Assembly (NCBI RefSeq): GCF_947495145.1
Contig: NZ_CANLXP010000013.1
Coordinates: forward strand, 35,828-99,827
Reading direction: 5' to 3'
DNA from: an uncultured Arthrobacter sp.
GTDB taxonomy: Bacteria; Actinomycetota; Actinomycetes; Actinomycetales; Micrococcaceae
DNA length: 64,000 nucleotides
Shown: piece after piece, positions 7,448-17,942 of the stretch
Layout of the letters: each line of letters opens with the position of its first letter
Numbering within the stretch: position 1 is the first letter of the stretch
Made by a program: the position numbers and the translations under genes
Notes under the pieces: generated by a model
Seen by the model: the letters and a program-made list of their open reading frames with translations, nothing else
Database searches by the model: none
Told to the model about the DNA's origin: nothing

Positions 7448-10400
7448 TTACTTCCCGTTCGCCTTGAGCACGAAGGGAGCGAACGCTATCCAGTCAACGT
7501 CTGGCGCAACTGCGTAACCGGGTAGAACGGTGTCGTCGCCGGTGCTTGGCGTAGCCCCCTCGTCGATGAACAGAGTAGGCCGCGTGTTGCCGAAGGTGAT
7601 CTCCCCCTTGTTGGTTGTGAGATCCAGGGGCATCACTGCTTCCCAGAAGTTCGTGGAGGTGTAGGTATACCGGAATGTGGTTCGTCCAGCGAGACCTTCA
7701 ACTCCCTGCTCGTTGGCCTGAAGCCCCAGGTCCACCACCTGCGGGTTGTAATCGTGCGTTCCTTCGATGTCATCGTTCGAGAAATGGACGATGGCGTTGT
7801 AGGCGCCCGCCTTATCGAAGCCCTTGAGCCTCGGAATGGTCAGCTTGCCTTCATCCGCGGCATTGCCGTTGGTGATGCCCAGTCCCTGAACGAACCCACC
7901 GCCGCTGCCGTTGGTCAAGGCATCGCCAAACCCGGACACAGCAGCCGTACCGGAAAGACCAACGGTCTTCAGGTCCTCGGCCTCGATGCGGATGATGCTC
8001 GCGTCACCCTCCACCGCGCGGGTGGTGGTGACCGCAGCGACGTTGGCCGTAGCGTTGCTCGTCAGTTCGAGCTCCGAAATACCCTCGGGCAGGTGGACCC
8101 GGACAGTGGACTTCCACGCCGGTGCCTTCGCGTTGAAGGTTGCGGCTTCCCGTCCGTTCACGGTGAGTGTGGTCTTGGCTCCACCCGGGCCATCCCACGC
8201 GACCGCGATATCGTAGTAGCCCGACTCGTAGGTGGAGGGGTACAGATCAACCCGGCTACCCTCGGAAAGGCTCGCGCTCCCCTTGGCCAGCGTCGCGCCG
8301 TCGATGAGGCGGAACGTCGATGCGGGGTATTCCACCGACTCGGAATTCACCGAGTCGCCGACGCGCACCAGCTCGAACCGGTCGAGAGTGACGCCGCCCT
8401 GGTCGCCCGCTCCGGGCAGCAGTGTGGAGCCGTCCTTGCTTGTTCGCAGGCTGAGAGTGCGTTCGCCTGCTTCAAGGTGCACGTAGACCTCAGCCGATCC
8501 GCGTGCCACAGTGCGCACGTTGCTGGGCTTGATCGCATTGGCGCCATACTGCACCACCTCGGAGAACGCGTCATCCACGAACAACGCATGCTGCGCGGCG
8601 GCTCCGGGCGTGGCTCCCAGAACCTGGAGGCGGTACAGGCCGGCGGTCTTCACGTTCACGGTCCACTCGGCCCGCGAATCGACCGCCGAGAAACCGGAAA
8701 CATCCCGGTCACCTGAGGCGCGGTAGCCCGACGGAGTACGGACCGACGACGCTTGCAGGCCGGCAGTCTCCGCCTCGGTTACGTGGCGCTCTCCCTGAGC
8801 AGCCGCGGCTGCTTCCACGTTGCGTTCCGCCGCCGGGGTCACGATCACCTGGTAGGCGCTGCTGGAGTTCGCTGATGGAATTCGCAGGTCCACCTTGCCA
8901 TCTACAACGGGCAGTTCATCGGCCGCAACGACCACCCTCGGTGCTCCGGCGATGCCGTCGGTGCCGCTCACAAGGTTCTCGCGCACTTCCACATCCACGG
9001 CGCCGCCGAAGGTAGCGTCGTCCAGGCCGGTCAGTGACAGCGCTCCGTCGCGTCCGGTGGGGATCCCGCCGACGATGACCTGGCCGCGCTTCGACTCCCG
9101 GTCAACGGCACCGATAGCCAGTTCCCTGCCGGTGGTAACCTGTACGGTACGCGATCCGGTCAGGTCTCCGTACCACTTGAAGAGCCACCAGCCGCCGTTG
9201 GCCGCGTTCACCTTGGCTTGGTTGTCGGACATAGTGCCCGACGCCGTCCAGTACGCCGTCTGCGCATCGACCTTCGCCGCCTCGAAACCGGCGAACCACC
9301 GCAGGAGGTTAGCTGGTGAGCTCATGTCGGTGCTGGCGCCCCACTCGGTGATGTTGATCGAGGGGATCTGCTCCGGCGAGAGGCCCACCTCGGCTGCGTA
9401 CCGGCGGAACAGGGATGCCCTGTCCGGAAGCCACTGGTATCCGCGCAGTTCGTGCCAGACATAGATGTCCGGCACGGTGTCGGTTGCGATGGCCATATTC
9501 AGGACGGTCTTGATGTTTCCTTCTCCGCGCCAGGCGGCGTCACCCGGTCCCGCGATCTTGGGTCGCTCGAGTCCGTACTTCGCGTAGGTCTCGGTGATGA
9601 CGTTCCAGGCGGCAACCCAATCGGTTGCGCCGTCGGGCGTGTAGCTGTTGGGCTGGTTCCCCAGGTGCATGAAGCGGTTGTAGAGGTCGTTCGTGTTCAG
9701 CCACTGCAGGTCAACCTCGTTGAACGGGATGAAGACGTACTTCTCAGGATTATCGGCTTCGCGGGCAACCTCGTCGACCACAATCTCGAGCACTTCCAGG
9801 TAGTCCCACGTGCCGTTCGCGGCGGCGGTGTACTCGCCGGTCAACCGCCCGTCCTCCCCGCGCGCGTAAGTGCGGTCATCTCCTGGCCGCTTGCCGCCGT
9901 TGTAGGGCCAGTCCGGATAGTAGTCCTGCGTATACAGGTAAAGATCTTCGCCGTACTTGTCGAAGAAGGTGTCCTCGATGTTGAAGGCGTCGCCGCCGGG
10001 ATGCTGTGTTCCGAACGGGGGCTTCTGCGAGATATTCGTCATCGCCGCGCCGTTCACCAGTGCCTGCGTGGGTGAGCCTTCGTCGCCGAGTCCGTACAGC
10101 GTTCCGGACGCTCCACCACGGAATTCCCCCGTGTCCTTGGCGAAGTCGACCACCACGCCAGTGGTGGGGCGCTCGGAGACGGTGACGTTCGCAACCAGCG
10201 GCTGTGCCCATCCGGTGATGGTGCCCCTAACGGTGAACGTTGCGCCTGCGGTGGCGTAGGCCGAGGAAGGCACGGCGTCCCAGGTGATCGCGGCGGTAGT
10301 CGCCGTCCCTGACTCGCGGGTCACGTTCACGGTGCCGGGAAGGGCCGGCGCTACGCCCGCCGGCGTCGACACGTCGAAGTTCTGACGCTCCACTGATGCG

Positions 10401-11230
10401 ACTCCTCCTACGTAGTCAGAGTAGATCCCCGATACCTGCTCTGCAGTCAGTGCAGTCTTGTAGACAGCGAAGTCGTCGAAGGCTCCTCCGAAAAATGCGG
10501 CCCATGGGCCCGACCAGGGAACACGTCCGATCAGGCCGGAGCGGGTGCTGTTGGCGGCGGCCAGCTTGCTGAAGTCGAGGCTGACTGCTTCCTTCCGGAT
10601 CAGGTCGCCGTTGATGTAGTAGGCCACCGAACTGCCGTCGGACACCGTCGTGAGGTGCGCCCAGGTATTGGTTGGAAGTGGATTCGGCGCGACGGCCTTG
10701 ACCTCGGTGCCGGAGTTGGCGACGGCCTTCGACTGACCGCCCTCATTCGGAACCATGTACAGGCCCCAGTTGTCCGCCGGCAGTGCGTCGCTTCCCACGA
10801 TGTAGGCCCAGGGAAGCTGGTTGGCGTTGGCGCCGTCCCACTTGATCCAGGCGGAGACGGTCATCGCCGTCGTGTCCTTGAACAGACCGGCCGGAATATC
10901 CAGGTACGGCTTGTCGCTGGAGGAGGAGTTCTGCGCTCCCCCAGGGAAGAGACCAGCCTGCCCGGTGGCGGAAGAAGGTCCGTCACCGCGGCTCAAAGCT
11001 GGAGCATTCCGCACTCGGGCATCGAAGGCGTTTCCGAGGGAACCCTCGTTCTGGATCACTCCGGCGGAGGCATCTCCGTCGAAAGTGTACAGAATGGCCG
11101 GTTCCGGAGGCGCTTCTTCTGCACCTGCTGCAGGAATGCTCACGATGACCGAGGTGGCCGCCAAGGGAAGCCCGGTCAGTACTGCAAGCGCGGCCTTCAG
11201 GCCCCGCCTCTTGCTGTGGGAGTCTTTCAT
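7448..11230 (-). CDS. Secreted multidomain glycoside hydrolase (LamG-like, Ig-like Big_4-like, clan GH-A-like catalytic domain, CBM-like C-terminal domains)
   Basis: Signal peptide; N-terminal LamG-like region (AMTVSAWIKWDGAN..FDDFAVYKTALTAEQVSGIY); NVTRESGTATTAAITWDAVP Ig-like; FIPFNEVDLQW and SINITEWGAS fit the acid/base and nucleophile Glu motifs of clan GH-A. Confidence 0.8.
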   Translation of the reverse strand: MKDSHSKRRGLKAALAVLTGLPLAATSVIVSIPAAGAEEAPPEPAILYTFDGDASAGVIQNEGSLGNAFDARVRNAPALSRGDGPSSATGQAGLFPGGAQNSSSSDKPYLDIPAGLFKDTTAMTVSAWIKWDGANANQLPWAYIVGSDALPADNWGLYMVPNEGGQSKAVANSGTEVKAVAPNPLPTNTWAHLTTVSDGSSVAYYINGDLIRKEAVSLDFSKLAAANSTRSGLIGRVPWSGPWAAFFGGAFDDFAVYKTALTAEQVSGIYSDYVGGVASVERQNFDVSTPAGVAPALPGTVNVTRESGTATTAAITWDAVPSSAYATAGATFTVRGTITGWAQPLVANVTVSERPTTGVVVDFAKDTGEFRGGASGTLYGLGDEGSPTQALVNGAAMTNISQKPPFGTQHPGGDAFNIEDTFFDKYGEDLYLYTQDYYPDWPYNGGKRPGDDRTYARGEDGRLTGEYTAAANGTWDYLEVLEIVVDEVAREADNPEKYVFIPFNEVDLQWLNTNDLYNRFMHLGNQPNSYTPDGATDWVAAWNVITETYAKYGLERPKIAGPGDAAWRGEGNIKTVLNMAIATDTVPDIYVWHELRGYQWLPDRASLFRRYAAEVGLSPEQIPSINITEWGASTDMSSPANLLRWFAGFEAAKVDAQTAYWTASGTMSDNQAKVNAANGGWWLFKWYGDLTGSRTVQVTTGRELAIGAVDRESKRGQVIVGGIPTGRDGALSLTGLDDATFGGAVDVEVRENLVSGTDGIAGAPRVVVAADELPVVDGKVDLRIPSANSSSAYQVIVTPAAERNVEAAAAAQGERHVTEAETAGLQASSVRTPSGYRASGDRDVSGFSAVDSRAEWTVNVKTAGLYRLQVLGATPGAAAQHALFVDDAFSEVVQYGANAIKPSNVRTVARGSAEVYVHLEAGERTLSLRTSKDGSTLLPGAGDQGGVTLDRFELVRVGDSVNSESVEYPASTFRLIDGATLAKGSASLSEGSRVDLYPSTYESGYYDIAVAWDGPGGAKTTLTVNGREAATFNAKAPAWKSTVRVHLPEGISELELTSNATANVAAVTTTRAVEGDASIIRIEAEDLKTVGLSGTAAVSGFGDALTNGSGGGFVQGLGITNGNAADEGKLTIPRLKGFDKAGAYNAIVHFSNDDIEGTHDYNPQVVDLGLQANEQGVEGLAGRTTFRYTYTSTNFWEAVMPLDLTTNKGEITFGNTRPTLFIDEGATPSTGDDTVLPGYAVAPDVDWIAFAPFVLKANGK

Positions 11231-11260: not shown

Positions 11261-11274
11261 TGAAAGCGCTATCA
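11261..11274. promoter_or_regulatory. LacI-family operator-like palindrome O1
   Basis: TGAAAGCGCTATCA, 6/7 half-site symmetry, 31 bp upstream of the 11230 start codon. Confidence 0.7.
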
Positions 11275-11388
11275 TCGGTGGGGCCAGCCTAGCGCGGGCT
11301 CACCCAAGAACGCTAGTGCTATTTCTACTGCGACACATTTGACGGGCTCGTTACGTTTCTCCTACAAGCCCAGCCGCAGTACGTAACT

Positions 11389-11402
11389 TGATACCGGTTT
11401 CA
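11389..11402. promoter_or_regulatory. LacI-family operator-like palindrome O2
   Basis: TGATACCGGTTTCA, 6/7 half-site symmetry, upstream of GH36. Confidence 0.7.
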
Positions 11403-11424
11403 GAAAATGTATTGCGGAAGCTTC

Positions 11425-11438
11425 TGAAATCGGTATCA
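11425..11438. promoter_or_regulatory. LacI-family operator-like palindrome O3
   Basis: TGAAATCGGTATCA; with O2 forms a longer 17-bp inverted repeat (tgataccggtttcagaa...ttctgaaatcggtatca). Confidence 0.7.
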
Positions 11439-11486
11439 TCGGTAAGGTGATCGCAGTCACGGTCACGGAAATCGCATAGGAGCGAA

Positions 11487-13586
11487 GTGCCTAACAGTCT
11501 GTCCTGGGGTCAACCCAGCCTCACCCTCGAGTTCTCGTGGGACGTCGATGCCCCCGTTACCCTCGTAGGTGCCACGAGCAAAGAGGTGATGCTCAAGACC
11601 TCCAACCCAATGCCGGTCGTGGAAATCCTCACTCCGGGCTCCGGCCGCATTCCGGCCTCCAGCAGGCTCGCCCACACGACACTAGGGCAGTCACTGCGCT
11701 ACGTCTCGCATAAAGAGATCGAATCGCCATTCGGGCCGGCGCTTCAGGTCCGGATGGCCAGCGGGCCGATGGACGTCCTCCTTCGGCTGGAAATGCCCTA
11801 CGGCGTTGGCGCAGTGCGCTCGACCGTGACCATTACCAATACCTCAAGCGCCGACGACGTCATCCTCCAGGCGGTGACCTCCTGGTCCGCGGGATTCGGC
11901 GATGCCGGGCCCGGAACAGACCCGCTCACCGACTGGGAAGTCACCTCAGGCGTCAATGACTGGCTCGGTGAAGGGCGCTGGGATACCCGGGCGCTGCGCG
12001 GTCCGGACTTTCCACGCTTGGCGCAGGAACTTACCGGCCACAATCCCCGTGGATCAATGAGCCGTGTGTCGACCGGATCCTGGTCCACCGGCCACCATCT
12101 TCCCGTGGCCGCCCTCCACTCCGCCAGCGCCGGCGTGGCCTGGGCCTGGCAGATCGAACATAACGGCGCGTGGCGCTGGGAGATCGGCGAGGACACTGCC
12201 GGTGGTTATCTCGCGTTGTCCGGCCCCACCGAGCGCGACTCCGCGTGGACCAAGGTCCTGCGGCCCGGCGAATCCTTTGCCTCAGTGCCCGCATCCGTGG
12301 CGCTGGGCGCCGACCTGACCGACGTCATGGCTGCACTGACGGCGTTCCGTCGGGCAGCCCGCAGGGATCACGCTGACAATCGGAACCTGCCCGTCGTCTT
12401 CAACGACTACATGAACACGCTCGACGGCGATCCCACCACCGAGAAGCTGCTTCCGCTGATTCATGCTGCCGCCGCCGTCGGCGCGGAGATCTTCTGTATC
12501 GACGCTGGCTGGTACGACGACACCGGGTTCTGGTGGGACGGCGTCGGCGAATGGCTGCCCTCCACCACACGCTTCCCGAATGGACTGGGAGAAGTAATCG
12601 CGGAGATCCAGAAGCTTGGGATGGTGCCCGGACTCTGGCTTGAACCCGAGGTCATCGGCCTGCGCAGTCCTGTTGCCGAGCGGCTCCCGCATGAAGCGTT
12701 CCTCAGTCGCCACGGCGAGCGCATCGTCGAACACGGCCGGTATCACCTGGACCTGCGCCATCCTGCGGCAGTGAACCACCTGAATGAGGTGGTCGATCGG
12801 CTGGTCGCCGAGTTCGGCCTCGGATTCTTCAAGTTCGACTACAACATCGATCCGGGCAGCGGTACCGACGTAAATGCCGACAGCCCCGGCGACGGTCTCC
12901 TGTGCCACAACCGTGCGCAGCTCGCGTGGCTGGACTCGGTGCTTGACCGGCATCCGGATCTGGTCATCGAGAACTGCTCCTCGGGAGCCATGCGGATGGA
13001 TTTCGCACTGCTGTCCAGGCTCGCCATGCAATCGACCTCCGACCAGCAGGACTTCCTGAAGTACCCACCGATCGCAGCCTCGGCGCCGCTGTCCATGCTG
13101 CCGGAGCAGGCAGCGAGCTGGGCCTACCCGCAGCCCGGGATGAGCTTGGAGGAAGTGTCCTTCTGCCTCGCCACGGGCCTGCTTGGCCGGTTCTACCTCT
13201 CGGGCTACCTCAACAATATGGAGGAAGCTCAGCTGGGCCTGGTACGGGAAGCGGTCAGGCTCGCGAAAGAGTTGCGGGTCGACCTCCCGAGCTCCCACCC
13301 GTTCTGGCCGATCGGGCTGCCCGGCTGGACCGACGGATGGGTTTCCCTCGGACTGTCAGCTCCGGAACGGGACCTGGTGACCGTCTGGAACCGCAACGGC
13401 GAAACGGAAACCCACCTGTCCCTGCCGCACCTGGCCGGTTCGCCGATCACTATCTCCACTATCTTCCCTTCGGCGCTGCCGGAGTGGACTACCGCCTGGA
13501 ACCCGGATACAGCCACGTTGACCGTGCGCTGCCAACCCGGCGTTTCAGCCCGGATCCTCCAAATCACATCAACCGTCGAGGCCTGA
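11487..13586 (+). CDS. Alpha-galactosidase, GH36
   Basis: GTG start; GWYDDTGFWWDGVGEWLPSTTRFPNGLGEVIAEIQKLGMVPGLWLEPEVIG, FFKFDYNID, VIENCSSGAMRMDFALL match GH36 active-site blocks. Confidence 0.95.
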   Translation: MPNSLSWGQPSLTLEFSWDVDAPVTLVGATSKEVMLKTSNPMPVVEILTPGSGRIPASSRLAHTTLGQSLRYVSHKEIESPFGPALQVRMASGPMDVLLRLEMPYGVGAVRSTVTITNTSSADDVILQAVTSWSAGFGDAGPGTDPLTDWEVTSGVNDWLGEGRWDTRALRGPDFPRLAQELTGHNPRGSMSRVSTGSWSTGHHLPVAALHSASAGVAWAWQIEHNGAWRWEIGEDTAGGYLALSGPTERDSAWTKVLRPGESFASVPASVALGADLTDVMAALTAFRRAARRDHADNRNLPVVFNDYMNTLDGDPTTEKLLPLIHAAAAVGAEIFCIDAGWYDDTGFWWDGVGEWLPSTTRFPNGLGEVIAEIQKLGMVPGLWLEPEVIGLRSPVAERLPHEAFLSRHGERIVEHGRYHLDLRHPAAVNHLNEVVDRLVAEFGLGFFKFDYNIDPGSGTDVNADSPGDGLLCHNRAQLAWLDSVLDRHPDLVIENCSSGAMRMDFALLSRLAMQSTSDQQDFLKYPPIAASAPLSMLPEQAASWAYPQPGMSLEEVSFCLATGLLGRFYLSGYLNNMEEAQLGLVREAVRLAKELRVDLPSSHPFWPIGLPGWTDGWVSLGLSAPERDLVTVWNRNGETETHLSLPHLAGSPITISTIFPSALPEWTTAWNPDTATLTVRCQPGVSARILQITSTVEA

Positions 13587-13650: not shown

Positions 13651-14967
13651 ATGAAGAAGTGCATCAGGGCGACAGCGCTTGTCGCCGCTGCGACCTCGCT
13701 GGTCTTGGCTGGCTGCAGCGATCCCGGGGCCGGAAGCACCGCTGCGGAAGGTCCCGTTGAGTGGCCTGCGCAGGACACCGATCTTGCCGGGACCACGCTC
13801 ACCATCTGGGCCGCGCAGAACTCGAACACCGTACCGGAAAGCGTTGTGGCCGGTTTCGAAGAACTGACCGGCGCCGAGGTCGAGGTCGAAACCATCCCCG
13901 ACCCCTACGAGCAAGGCGTCCAGACCAAGGTGGCCACCGGAGACAAGCCCGACCTCGCGTTCTGGCAGCCCACCGCCTCACAGCTGACAGCGTTGAACGC
14001 ATCCACCAACCTCCAGCCACTGAACGACGCTCCCTGGGTGGAGTCGCTTAAGCCCGAGCTGCAGGACATGACCGGAATCCTCGAAGACACCCGGTATGCC
14101 GCACTGATCACCACTCCGGCCGTCGAGGGCGTCTACTACAACAAGGAGGTTTTCGAGGAGGCAGGCATTTCGGAGCTGCCGACCGACTGGGATACCTTCG
14201 TGGAGCTCGGACGGGAACTGAAGGGCCAGGGAGTCACCCCGTTCTACGAGATGGGCGCAGACCGCTGGGCCACGCAGTGGTGGGTGCAGGTTCAGCTGGC
14301 CGAAGCCGCCAAGGACGGCTTGTGGGATCGCGTGAACGCCGGTGAGGAGAAGTTCACCGATGAGACCATTCAGGGTGCGATCGATAACTACAACGGCCTC
14401 ATCGAAGAGGGTCTCTTCAACGAGGACATCAAGACCGCTACCTTCGAGGACCAGGGAGACGCCCTCCTCGCAGGAGACGCCGCCATGGTCGTCCAGGTGA
14501 ACTCGTTCTTCTCACAGCTCCAGGCCAAGACCGACACGGCCGAGCTGAACGAAAAGATCGGCTTCTTCCCGATCGGTCCCGGCGGCAACGTCGGCACCTT
14601 CATCCCGGACCAGAGCAACGCCCTCGTCGCCTTCAAGACCGGCGATGCAGAGAAGGAAGCAGCATCACGCCAGCTCCTCAGCTACTGGATGGGCGAGGGT
14701 TACGGCGACTTCGTTGCCGCGCAGTCGACCGTGTCCCTGCAGGACAGCGTAACCACCCCCGAGGACGTCCCCGAAGCGCTCCTTTCCGTCAGTGACTCGC
14801 TGGGCGATTCGGTTCCGTCGATGCAGGCTGCCGCCATTGCCAACCCGGACCTGTACATTTTCCTCGCCGATATGATCCAGGGCACGAAGACGCCCGAGGA
14901 AGTAGCGCAGGCCACCCAGGACCAGTTCGCCGAACTCGCCCGGGCGCAGGGCGCAACCGGGTTCTAA
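13651..14967 (+). CDS. ABC transporter sugar-binding lipoprotein (SBP family 1)
   Basis: Lipobox VLAGCSDPG; TLTIWAAQNSNTVPESVVAGFEELTGAEVEVETIPD; RBS aaaggag. Confidence 0.95.
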   Translation: MKKCIRATALVAAATSLVLAGCSDPGAGSTAAEGPVEWPAQDTDLAGTTLTIWAAQNSNTVPESVVAGFEELTGAEVEVETIPDPYEQGVQTKVATGDKPDLAFWQPTASQLTALNASTNLQPLNDAPWVESLKPELQDMTGILEDTRYAALITTPAVEGVYYNKEVFEEAGISELPTDWDTFVELGRELKGQGVTPFYEMGADRWATQWWVQVQLAEAAKDGLWDRVNAGEEKFTDETIQGAIDNYNGLIEEGLFNEDIKTATFEDQGDALLAGDAAMVVQVNSFFSQLQAKTDTAELNEKIGFFPIGPGGNVGTFIPDQSNALVAFKTGDAEKEAASRQLLSYWMGEGYGDFVAAQSTVSLQDSVTTPEDVPEALLSVSDSLGDSVPSMQAAAIANPDLYIFLADMIQGTKTPEEVAQATQDQFAELARAQGATGF

Positions 14968-14974
14968 TCGAGAA

Positions 14975-15009
14975 AAAGGGGTGCCGGCGCTCTGCGTCGG
15001 CACCCCTTT
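14975..15009 (+). terminator. Intercistronic hairpin/attenuator between SBP and permeases
   Basis: aaaggggtgccg-gcgctctgcgt-cggcacccctttc, with A-tract before and T-tract after. Confidence 0.75.
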
Positions 15010-15025
15010 CAGGAAAGGCACCATC

Positions 15026-15964
15026 ATGACTGCGAGTATCACCTCAACGCGGAAAGAGGCACCGCCTCAATCGACAGCGCCGACTCCGCGACCGGATCGC
15101 AGGCACAAGGACCATCCGCTCTGGTTCCTCGTTCCCGCCCTGATTGTCCTCGTGGTCTTCTTCTTCATCCCCACGGTGTTCAACTTTGTCTACGCCTTCA
15201 CAGACTGGTCCAGCTTCAAGTCAGCGATCAATTTCATCGGCACCGAGAACTTTGTATCGCTGTTCTCCAACGGCACACTGCTCAACTCCCTGAAGGTCAC
15301 TTTGATCTATGCGGTGCTGGTAGCGATCTTCCAGAACCTCTTCGGCCTGATACTTGCCCTGCTGCTGGAACGGGACACCAAAGTGAACCGCGCAGTGCGG
15401 GTGGCGTTCTTTGTTCCCGTCATCATGTCTGCGCTCGCCGTCGGCTACATCTTCCAGGCCCTCCTGAAGCCCGGGGGTGCGTTGAACGGCATCCTTAGCT
15501 TCGTCTCCGGCTCCGAGGTATCCATCGCATGGCTGGGCAACACCACCTGGACTATCGTCGTAGTTGCGCTCGTGCATGCCTGGAAATGGATGGGCCTCTC
15601 GATGCTCATCTATCTGGCCGGCCTGAAGACCATCAGTGAGGACGTCGTCGAGGCCGCGAAGATCGACGGCGCATCTTGGTGGGCAACCTTCCGCAAAATC
15701 CGCTTCCCGCTTCTGGCACCGGCCGTCACCTTCAATGTTGCAACGGCTCTGCTCGGCTCCATGAACGGCTTCGACATCGTTCAGGCCACCACCGAGGGCG
15801 GACCCGGCGGAACCACGGAGCTTTTGAACATTTTCATCTTTCGTACCTTCGGCCAGGGGCTCTTTGCCCAGGCGACAACCATGAGCCTGGTCTTGTTCCT
15901 GACCGTCATGATCCTGGCCTTCCCCCTAATCTCGATTCTCCGCAAGAGGGAGGACGTACTGTGA
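15026..15964 (+). CDS. Sugar ABC transporter permease (MalF/UgpA-like)
   Basis: Start taken at ATG 15026 after RBS gaaagg, not at 14981 inside the hairpin; EDVVEAAKIDGASWWATFRKIRFPLLAP EAA motif. Confidence 0.95.
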   Translation: MTASITSTRKEAPPQSTAPTPRPDRRHKDHPLWFLVPALIVLVVFFFIPTVFNFVYAFTDWSSFKSAINFIGTENFVSLFSNGTLLNSLKVTLIYAVLVAIFQNLFGLILALLLERDTKVNRAVRVAFFVPVIMSALAVGYIFQALLKPGGALNGILSFVSGSEVSIAWLGNTTWTIVVVALVHAWKWMGLSMLIYLAGLKTISEDVVEAAKIDGASWWATFRKIRFPLLAPAVTFNVATALLGSMNGFDIVQATTEGGPGGTTELLNIFIFRTFGQGLFAQATTMSLVLFLTVMILAFPLISILRKREDVL

Positions 15965-16824
15965 GCACTACAACTGCCGCGCTGAACCGGCGTCGTCGAA
16001 CCGCCAGCGAGAAGCGGCGGTTCATTCAGCCGGCCTTCGCCTTGGCTGCGGCCGTGCTGCTCCTCGGTGTGCCGTTCTGGCTGGTGATCAGCACCGCTGG
16101 AAAAAACCAGGCCGAAGCCTTCAATCCCAATCTCGCTCCGCCATCCGACTGGCGGCTCTTCGAAAACTTCGCCCAGGTCTTCGACGACGGGCGCATGGTA
16201 ACGGCGTTCTTCGGAAGCCTGCTCGTGATGGTTCCGGCTGTGTTTGGCGTACTGCTACTCGGTTCCATGGCCGCCTGGGTACTCGGCCGGCGCAGCAGCA
16301 GGGGCATGGCCATGGTCTACGCGCTCGCGATCAGCGGCATTGTGTTGCCTCCTGCCGTCGTCACTGTGGTCCTCCTGCTTCGCCAGCTAGGCCTCGCGGG
16401 CACCGCCGTCGGCATGATCGGCGTGTACATGGGGATGTACCTGTCCACGGTGATCTTCTTCGTCACAGGGTTCGTCCGAACTATTCCACCGGAATTGGAG
16501 GAAGCGGCGCGCGTTGACGGAGCGTCCCCGATCAAGGTGTTCGCGCGCATTATCCTGCCGCTGCTGGTCCCGGTCCTGGCCACAGCAACCATTTTGATCT
16601 GCCTGTACATCTGGAACGACGTGTTCTACGCGCTCTTCGTCATCGGTGGGCGTATCGATACACTGCCGCTGAACTTGTACCAGGTAGCCAGCGCCGGCCT
16701 ATACCTGCAGAACTGGCACCTCATCTTCTCCTACATCATTCTCATGAGCCTGCCGCTGCTCATCACGTTCATCGTGGCGCAACGTAAGATCATTTCAGGA
16801 ATCACGAGTGGAGCGGTCAAGTGA
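15961..16824 (+). CDS. Carbohydrate ABC transporter permease (MalG-like)
   Basis: GTG start overlapping the previous stop; ELEEAARVDGASPIKVFARIILPLLVP EAA motif. Confidence 0.95.
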   Translation: MSTTTAALNRRRRTASEKRRFIQPAFALAAAVLLLGVPFWLVISTAGKNQAEAFNPNLAPPSDWRLFENFAQVFDDGRMVTAFFGSLLVMVPAVFGVLLLGSMAAWVLGRRSSRGMAMVYALAISGIVLPPAVVTVVLLLRQLGLAGTAVGMIGVYMGMYLSTVIFFVTGFVRTIPPELEEAARVDGASPIKVFARIILPLLVPVLATATILICLYIWNDVFYALFVIGGRIDTLPLNLYQVASAGLYLQNWHLIFSYIILMSLPLLITFIVAQRKIISGITSGAVK

Positions 16825-17942
16825 GCGTTGGCGAGGTGTCCGACTTATCGGCGCAACGCATCGCGGAAACAAGACCCGTCTCCCCTCAAGGACTGATGTA
16901 CGGGGAGTTCTTGACAACGTCAAAGCGGAAACAGCGCTCGCCGGTTATTGCCGACGTCGCACGCCTTGCCGGAGTGTCGGTGCCCACAGTGTCCCGCGTC
17001 CTTACGGGGGCAGCGCGCGTGAGTCCTGTGAAGCGGCAGAGCGTACTCGACGCGATCGCAGCTCTGAACTATCGCCCGAGCGCCGCCGCGAGGTCGGTCG
17101 CATCAAAAAGGGCGAGCGTTGTGGGTGTCATTGCGGGCAACACCTCGCAGTACGGGTATGCGGAAACCATCCGCGGCATCGAGATTGCCGCCCGAGCGCA
17201 AGGTTTCATTGTCTCGATCGCGGTCGTGGAGACCACAGCGGATGACGACGTCGAACGCGCAGTCTCACTGGTGCTGGGCCAGGACCTCGCTGGCGTACTC
17301 GCTCTGAAGTTCGACCCTCCCGGAGTAGCAGCGCTGAGCAAGATGCCGGACTACGTACCCACCGTCGCTATTTCCGGTGTGCGGGACACCAGCATCCCGC
17401 AGGCGGTCCTTGATGAGACCCGCGCGGCCGAGGAACTGACGAAATATCTCCTCGGGCTCGGGCACAAGACCGTTCACCATGTTCGCGTTCCACCGTCACG
17501 GCGCGAAGACGGACGCACCACTGGGTGGCGGCGTGCGCTTCGCAAGGCGGGTGCCCCTGTTCCGCCGCTGCTCGACGCAAGCTGGAGCCCGGGATCGGGA
17601 CGGGATATTGGCAGGTCGTTGGCCTCGGACCCATCGGTCACCGCGGTATTTTGCGGCAACGACGAGATAGCAATGGGCGTCATCCGGGGGCTCGCCGACG
17701 AAGGTGTCAGGACTCCCGACGACATCAGCGTGGTCGGTTTCGATGATCACCCGCTATCCGACCTCTGGAGTCCTTCAATCACCACCGCCAGACAGGATTT
17801 CTGCAACCTGGGACAGCGTGCTTTCGGGCTGTTGCTTGAGCAGCTCAACGACGGGGAGAAACCGAAGCGGTTCTCCTCGGAACGGCCCGCGGTGATCGTG
17901 CGGGAGAGCGCTGCTGTGCCGCGCGCCGACCGCGTACCGTAG
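16821..17942 (+). CDS. LacI-family transcriptional regulator
   Basis: VIADVARLAGVSVPTVSRVLTGAARVSPVKRQSVLDAIAALNYRPSAAARSV HTH; periplasmic-binding-like C-terminus; overlaps the permease stop (GTGA). Confidence 0.95.
   Translation: MSVGEVSDLSAQRIAETRPVSPQGLMYGEFLTTSKRKQRSPVIADVARLAGVSVPTVSRVLTGAARVSPVKRQSVLDAIAALNYRPSAAARSVASKRASVVGVIAGNTSQYGYAETIRGIEIAARAQGFIVSIAVVETTADDDVERAVSLVLGQDLAGVLALKFDPPGVAALSKMPDYVPTVAISGVRDTSIPQAVLDETRAAEELTKYLLGLGHKTVHHVRVPPSRREDGRTTGWRRALRKAGAPVPPLLDASWSPGSGRDIGRSLASDPSVTAVFCGNDEIAMGVIRGLADEGVRTPDDISVVGFDDHPLSDLWSPSITTARQDFCNLGQRAFGLLLEQLNDGEKPKRFSSERPAVIVRESAAVPRADRVP

Follow-up and report, generated by a model that had tools for sequence, protein, structure and literature searches.

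The window, by which we mean the whole 64-kb stretch of DNA analysed, contains a divergent gene cluster in which a 256-bp intergenic region separates a leftward gene (7448-11230, minus strand) from a rightward operon starting at 11487. The leftward gene encodes a predicted secreted GH39-type glycoside hydrolase of the AAfase type, with LamG, Big_4 and CBM35 modules (Pfam): residues 556-800 of the protein match solved GH39-type structures (PDB 8uwt and 5u22), and its N-terminus, MKDSHSKRRGLKAALAVLTGLPLAATSVIVSIPAAGA, resembles by eye a Sec signal peptide. The operon, on the plus strand, begins with a GH36 glycosidase, a probable beta-L-arabinopyranosidase (11487-13586; Pfam Melibiase, NCBIfam NF053652) in which no signal peptide is evident by eye, and continues with an ABC transporter sugar-binding protein (13651-14967; Pfam SBP_bac_1), two ABC transporter permeases (14981-15964 and 15961-16824; both Pfam BPD_transp_1) and, as its last gene, a LacI-family repressor (16821-17942; Pfam LacI PF00356 and Peripla_BP_3 PF13377). 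The latter protein has a helix-turn-helix domain (PF00356, E 3.3e-15) and an effector domain (PF13377, E 9e-31), and its gene overlaps that of permease 2 by 4 nt. Most of its relatives align only from residue 21-43 on, and an ATG is present at 16896; the GTG start at 16821 is probably too early, and the true start may be this ATG.

Three sites between the divergent genes

The original prediction had placed three 14-bp LacI-type operators in the intergenic region, and all three are present as exact matches, listed without strand: O1, TGAAAGCGCTATCA, at 11261-11274; O2, TGATACCGGTTTCA, at 11389-11402, the upstream member of the pair on the GH36 side; and O3, TGAAATCGGTATCA, at 11425-11438, proximal to GH36. 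Their weight-matrix scores are 24.8, 23.4 and 25.5 respectively, the best non-operator site in a scan of the window scoring 9.0. The strict motif TGAWANCGNTWTCA matches exactly at O1, O2 and O3 only, in the 64-kb window and likewise in the whole 3.55-Mb, 57-contig genome; the reversed pattern, used as a control on the same genome, gave 1 match even at one mismatch. Shuffling of the 256-bp intergenic region produced the strict motif 10 times in total in 200,000 trials, and three TGA-N8-TCA dyads together in 1 of 50,000 (mean, 0.06).

The geometry proposed for the GH36-side pair was also borne out: the starts of O2 and O3 are separated by 36 bp, and both sites lie within a 17-nt inverted repeat (11389-11405 / 11422-11438) that is 94% complementary. 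To this can be added a 22-nt direct repeat, 86% identical, which spans O1 and O3 and is absent from the original prediction. O1 occupies the stretch 31-44 bp ahead of the GH39 start codon (ATG), 128 bp from O2 and 164 bp from O3; between the end of O3 and the GH36 start codon, a GTG at 11487, there are 48 bp.

Conservation of the sites and their link to the regulator

A search with the LacI protein yielded 72 loci, a GH36 relative being present in 59. Most of these 59 share the gene order GH36, binding protein, two permeases, LacI, with a divergent GH39. Strict sites, 105 altogether, occur no more than 700 bp before GH36 in 49 of the 59 loci, distributed over 17 genus-level groups, and in these 49 the GH36-proximal site is kept, starting 49-125 bp before GH36. 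The 1.44 Mb of relative loci gave 117 motif matches, and none for the reversed pattern. When all 3-nt dyads with gaps of 0-10 were counted in the 250 bp before GH36, the window being left out, TGA-N8-TCA proved the most widespread (51 of 59 loci; next best 26). Twenty-two genome assemblies contained 57 motif matches against 3 for the control, and those listed fall at this locus save for three, two of them in a single genome and the third in a different one. The Bifidobacterium locus (L068) has no strict site.

At two loci, in Tessaracoccus (L046) and Arenivirga (L052), GH39 has been relocated to the far side of lacI, and extra strict sites lie just upstream of it (11065 and 11121 in L046; 3464 in L052), besides those before GH36; that sites accompany the relocated GH39 supports control of both transcripts. 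The sequence of the site also varies with that of the regulator. Arthrobacter regulators L055-L058, with the hinge YRPNxAARATRSGKRS, go with the site GGATAACGWTTTCC; those of Cryobacterium/Frondihabitans (L044, L045, L049), with the hinge YRPNGAARALVSGK, go with TGATARCGTTTTCA, which has a T beside the central CG where the main group has one in 0 of 86 oriented asymmetric sites; and Nocardioides L028, which also has a different helix-turn-helix/hinge, has TGATAGCGCTTTCT. Such co-variation of the site with the regulator's DNA-binding domain ties the motif to this regulator. The L055-L058 proteins form a second Arthrobacter regulator group, about 51-53% identical; some adjoin a GH36 that shares about 42% identity with that of the window, and strains are shared by L001 and L055 and by L002 and L057, so that both groups are found in one genome.

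The sites thus form an even palindrome with a central CG, near the predicted regulated promoters and conserved alongside the regulator. Conservation, presence at the relocated GH39 and co-variation with the DNA-binding domain all speak for the view that these are LacI-type operators serving both directions, and the LacI protein encoded at 16821-17942 very likely binds O1-O3. Could some other LacI-family protein, or a global regulator resembling CcpA, occupy them in place of the local one? The motif's shape, with its central CG, fits the general LacI/CcpA (cre box-like) pattern, and the window's own genome has 24 LacI-family matches; but the genome lacks other exact sites, its ten one-mismatch sites are mostly inside genes, with none seen before sugar-use genes, and among relatives the sequence of the site changes with the DNA-binding domain of the local protein. 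Global cre-like regulation was rejected on the first two of these grounds, and we regard binding by a protein other than the local one as extremely improbable. No further operator was seen near the lacI gene; from its place at the operon's end we infer that lacI is under its own control by way of the operon promoter.

The operators are asymmetric at one position. A TGAAA half-site is paired with a TGATA half-site in 46 of 52 distinct operators (defined by genus plus sequence) and in 16 of 17 genus-level groups, where half-site frequencies predict 26 operators; the binomial p of 5e-9 assumes independence, which is too generous given shared ancestry. In 13 of 15 groups the asymmetric site closest to GH36 has the reading TGAAA...TATCA, and those farther away mostly have TGATA...TTTCA; O2 and O3 fit this positional rule of orientation, and O1 reads like O3. 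One could speculate, with more doubt than conviction, that the operators are directional, either because a LacI dimer reads an obligately asymmetric site or because the operator is fused with an outward TATCA promoter element, in which case operator orientation would encode promoter direction. If real, the asymmetry bears on how LacI-type sites merge with promoters. An embedded -10 hexamer does not account for the asymmetry in full: of 31 sites that read rightward, only 13 have a T after TATCA.

The hydrolase beside the promoter is less constant. GH39 exists in two versions among L001-L064, about 38-50% and 55-76% identical to the window's; they also differ in the presence or absence of a long N-terminal LamG part. 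Mapped on the LacI tree, the two versions replace each other 6 times, and well-supported branches force at least 5 of these replacements; the 6 include changes within Rathayibacter (L030 window-like, L025 and L053 not) and within Microbacterium, as though the divergent promoter persisted while its hydrolase was swapped. In 24 congeners (G001-G024) the best LacI match is only about 37% identical, so that the cluster appears patchy in the genus, and it may conceivably have been acquired, although Arthrobacter has regulators that are 74-76% identical.

Proposed repression, spacing and the predicted inducer

In the switch that we propose, a LacI dimer would sit at O1, beside the GH39 start codon, and LacI dimers at O2 and O3 would occupy the promoter of the GH36-ABC-lacI operon, O3 probably covering its -10; both transcripts would be repressed, and with lacI at the operon's end the repressor would limit its own synthesis. 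A consensus promoter scan found nothing above threshold, and the candidate GH36 promoter (11412-11439, plus strand) was picked out by eye: TTGCGG at 11412-11417, a 16-nt spacer and TATCAT at 11434-11439, this putative -10 overlapping O3. Given a plausible -10 there, the positions of O1 and O3 would fit steric repression. It speaks against the scheme that an O1-like site near GH39 is missing in some relatives. What we infer in it is that the protein binds physically, that control is by repression, where the promoters lie, which sugar is the inducer, and that O2 and O3 cooperate. Were the regulator instead an activator, its sites recruiting polymerase, O2 would be conveniently placed just upstream of the candidate -35; but O1 and O3 are positioned at the likely core promoters or on top of them, and LacI-family proteins of local sugar operons are mostly repressors. 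We judge activation very unlikely.

As to how the sites act together, the original prediction had offered cooperative or looping repression, and only the former half retains its appeal. In the relatives, 43 of 56 adjacent-site spacings fall in classes of 23-24 or 33-36 bp, and such restricted spacing of pairs makes cooperativity plausible; in a survey of the LacI family the spacings peaked at 22 and 32 bp, which was read as cooperative binding (PMC4052901). Cooperativity of O2 and O3 themselves is plausible though unproven, because their 36-bp spacing, at the loose end of the 33-36 class and equal to about 3.4 helical turns, would put unbent dimers on nearly opposite faces of the DNA. Looping of the DNA between O1 and O2/O3, by a LacI tetramer or by paired dimers that would co-repress both promoters, has in its favour that a single divergent region holds three sites, O1 being 128 and 164 bp from the others, and that several genera again have a site on the GH39 side. 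However, the match of the regulator to E. coli LacI stops at residue 329 of the latter with 9 query residues remaining, and no C-terminal tetramerisation helix was found in it, most relatives also ending soon after the core without a heptad helix; lac-type looping is therefore unlikely. Nor is the distance to O1 constrained: the spacings outside the two classes, mostly on the GH39 side, range from 42 to 105 bp, a helical register sought in the distances from the GH39-side site to the pair (42, 45, 55, 67, 70, 76, 89, 90, 93 and 105 bp) was not found, and many relatives have only the close pair. Looping was accordingly dropped as the leading model, and we give it little credence. 

The sugar to which the repressor responds can be approached through the enzymes. 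In Bifidobacterium pseudocatenulatum the GH39 of cluster MCC10289_0425-0430 releases beta-L-Arap-(1->3)-L-Ara, a sugar that the strain uses, and this AAfase is distinguished from the alpha-galactosyl-specific GAfase of B. longum by one residue of the -2 subsite, Tyr as against Asn (PMC10688797). Tyr433 of the window's GH39 aligns with AAfase Tyr116 / GAfase Asn119. The register was set via the GAfase sequence implied by mutagenesis primers given in the same paper (PMC10688797): the GAfase context, EELVV-N-LQDWYPD, aligns with EDLYL-Y-TQDYYPD of the window, which places Tyr433 at the specificity position. Tyr is found there in 50 of 51 aligned GH39 sequences (the window's and 49 of the 50 others), and the catalytic Glu505 and Glu629 are invariant in all 51. 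GH36 has its best score against the NCBIfam model for beta-L-arabinopyranosidase, NF053652, which it matches over nearly its full length (E 2.7e-179, 598 bits), pointing to it as a probable beta-L-arabinopyranosidase; the score is well below the equivalog cut-off of 1100 bits, and alpha-galactosidase activity is conceivable. The genome also has araA, araD and araB; at L107 (G000:C6:74000-84000) araA-araD lie divergent from araB, with a separate LacI-family gene adjoining (recognition region VSHQTVSRV).

On this reading the extracellular GH39 would act on the side chains of arabinogalactan proteins and free a disaccharide, which is most likely beta-L-Arap-(1->3)-L-Ara. After import by the ABC transporter the disaccharide would be cleaved to L-arabinose by GH36, and binding of the disaccharide or of L-arabinose to the repressor would free the operators. 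From the GH39 Tyr, the GH36 model, the likeness of the gene set to that of MCC10289 and the presence of araA, araD and araB, one or other of these two sugars appears a likelier inducer than melibiose or raffinose. Galactose, melibiose and raffinose, the candidates first put forward, are probably wrong in view of the GH39 Tyr, the GH36 match and the AAfase-like gene set. The same operators and regulator could nonetheless belong to a locus for alpha-galactosides (melibiose, raffinose or alpha-D-Gal-(1->3)-L-Ara) with a galactose-type inducer: Pfam names GH36 a Melibiase, its nearest solved relatives are alpha-galactosidases, and the B. longum version of the cluster handles alpha-D-Gal-(1->3)-L-Ara (PMC10688797). 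Set against this are the near-universal Tyr, the published Asn-to-Tyr change, which switches preference from Gal to Arap (PMC10688797), the full-length match of GH36 to a beta-L-arabinopyranosidase model, and the consideration that use of raffinose or melibiose needs no secreted multi-domain GH39. We think the alpha-galactoside reading unlikely, while according it some weight, and prefer L-arabinose or its disaccharide.

Taken together, it is highly probable, on sequence grounds, that O1-O3 are the operators of the LacI protein encoded at 16821-17942 in a locus for arabinogalactan side chains.

Comparison with known systems

The switch is of a well-known kind. A regulator, an operator motif and a predicted inducer are hereby assigned to an arabinogalactan side-chain locus of many soil and plant actinobacteria (17 genus-level groups), and the guess of raffinose or melibiose is corrected. 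A search of the literature found nothing joining GH39, arabinopyranosidase and Microbacterium.

The closest counterpart is the MCC10289 AAfase cluster (PMC10688797), which like the window has a Tyr-type GH39, a probable beta-L-arabinopyranosidase of GH36, a solute-binding protein, two permeases and a LacI gene, and in which, as here, there is no ATPase gene; the text consulted names the LacI-type gene and contains no analysis of regulation. Unlike the MCC10289 arrangement, the window's GH39 is divergent from the operon and bears LamG and CBM35, the hosts are soil and plant actinobacteria, and the operators are defined. The gum-arabic GAfase cluster of B. longum JCM7052 likewise serves the side chains of arabinogalactan proteins with GH39, GH36 and ABC genes (PMC10688797); it differs from the window in its Asn-type GH39, which releases alpha-D-Gal-(1->3)-L-Ara and is anchored to the cell wall, in its alpha-galactosidase GH36 and in its possession of an ATPase gene.

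In regulation, the bifidobacterial AauR, AbfR and BauR are LacI-type local repressors of arabinosidase and transporter genes too (PMC5928203), though of loci with other enzyme families, e.g. GH43, GH51, GH121 and GH127; the comparison made here is one of kind. With the local LacI regulons surveyed earlier (PMC4052901) our locus shares an even palindrome centred on CG, the placing of sites 30-140 bp ahead of the start codon, a local regulon, predicted autoregulation, multiple sites in a divergent region and preferred spacings; it departs from them in that its pairs are spaced by 23-24 and 33-36 bp, as against 22 and 32 bp, and in that its operators are consistently asymmetric at one position.
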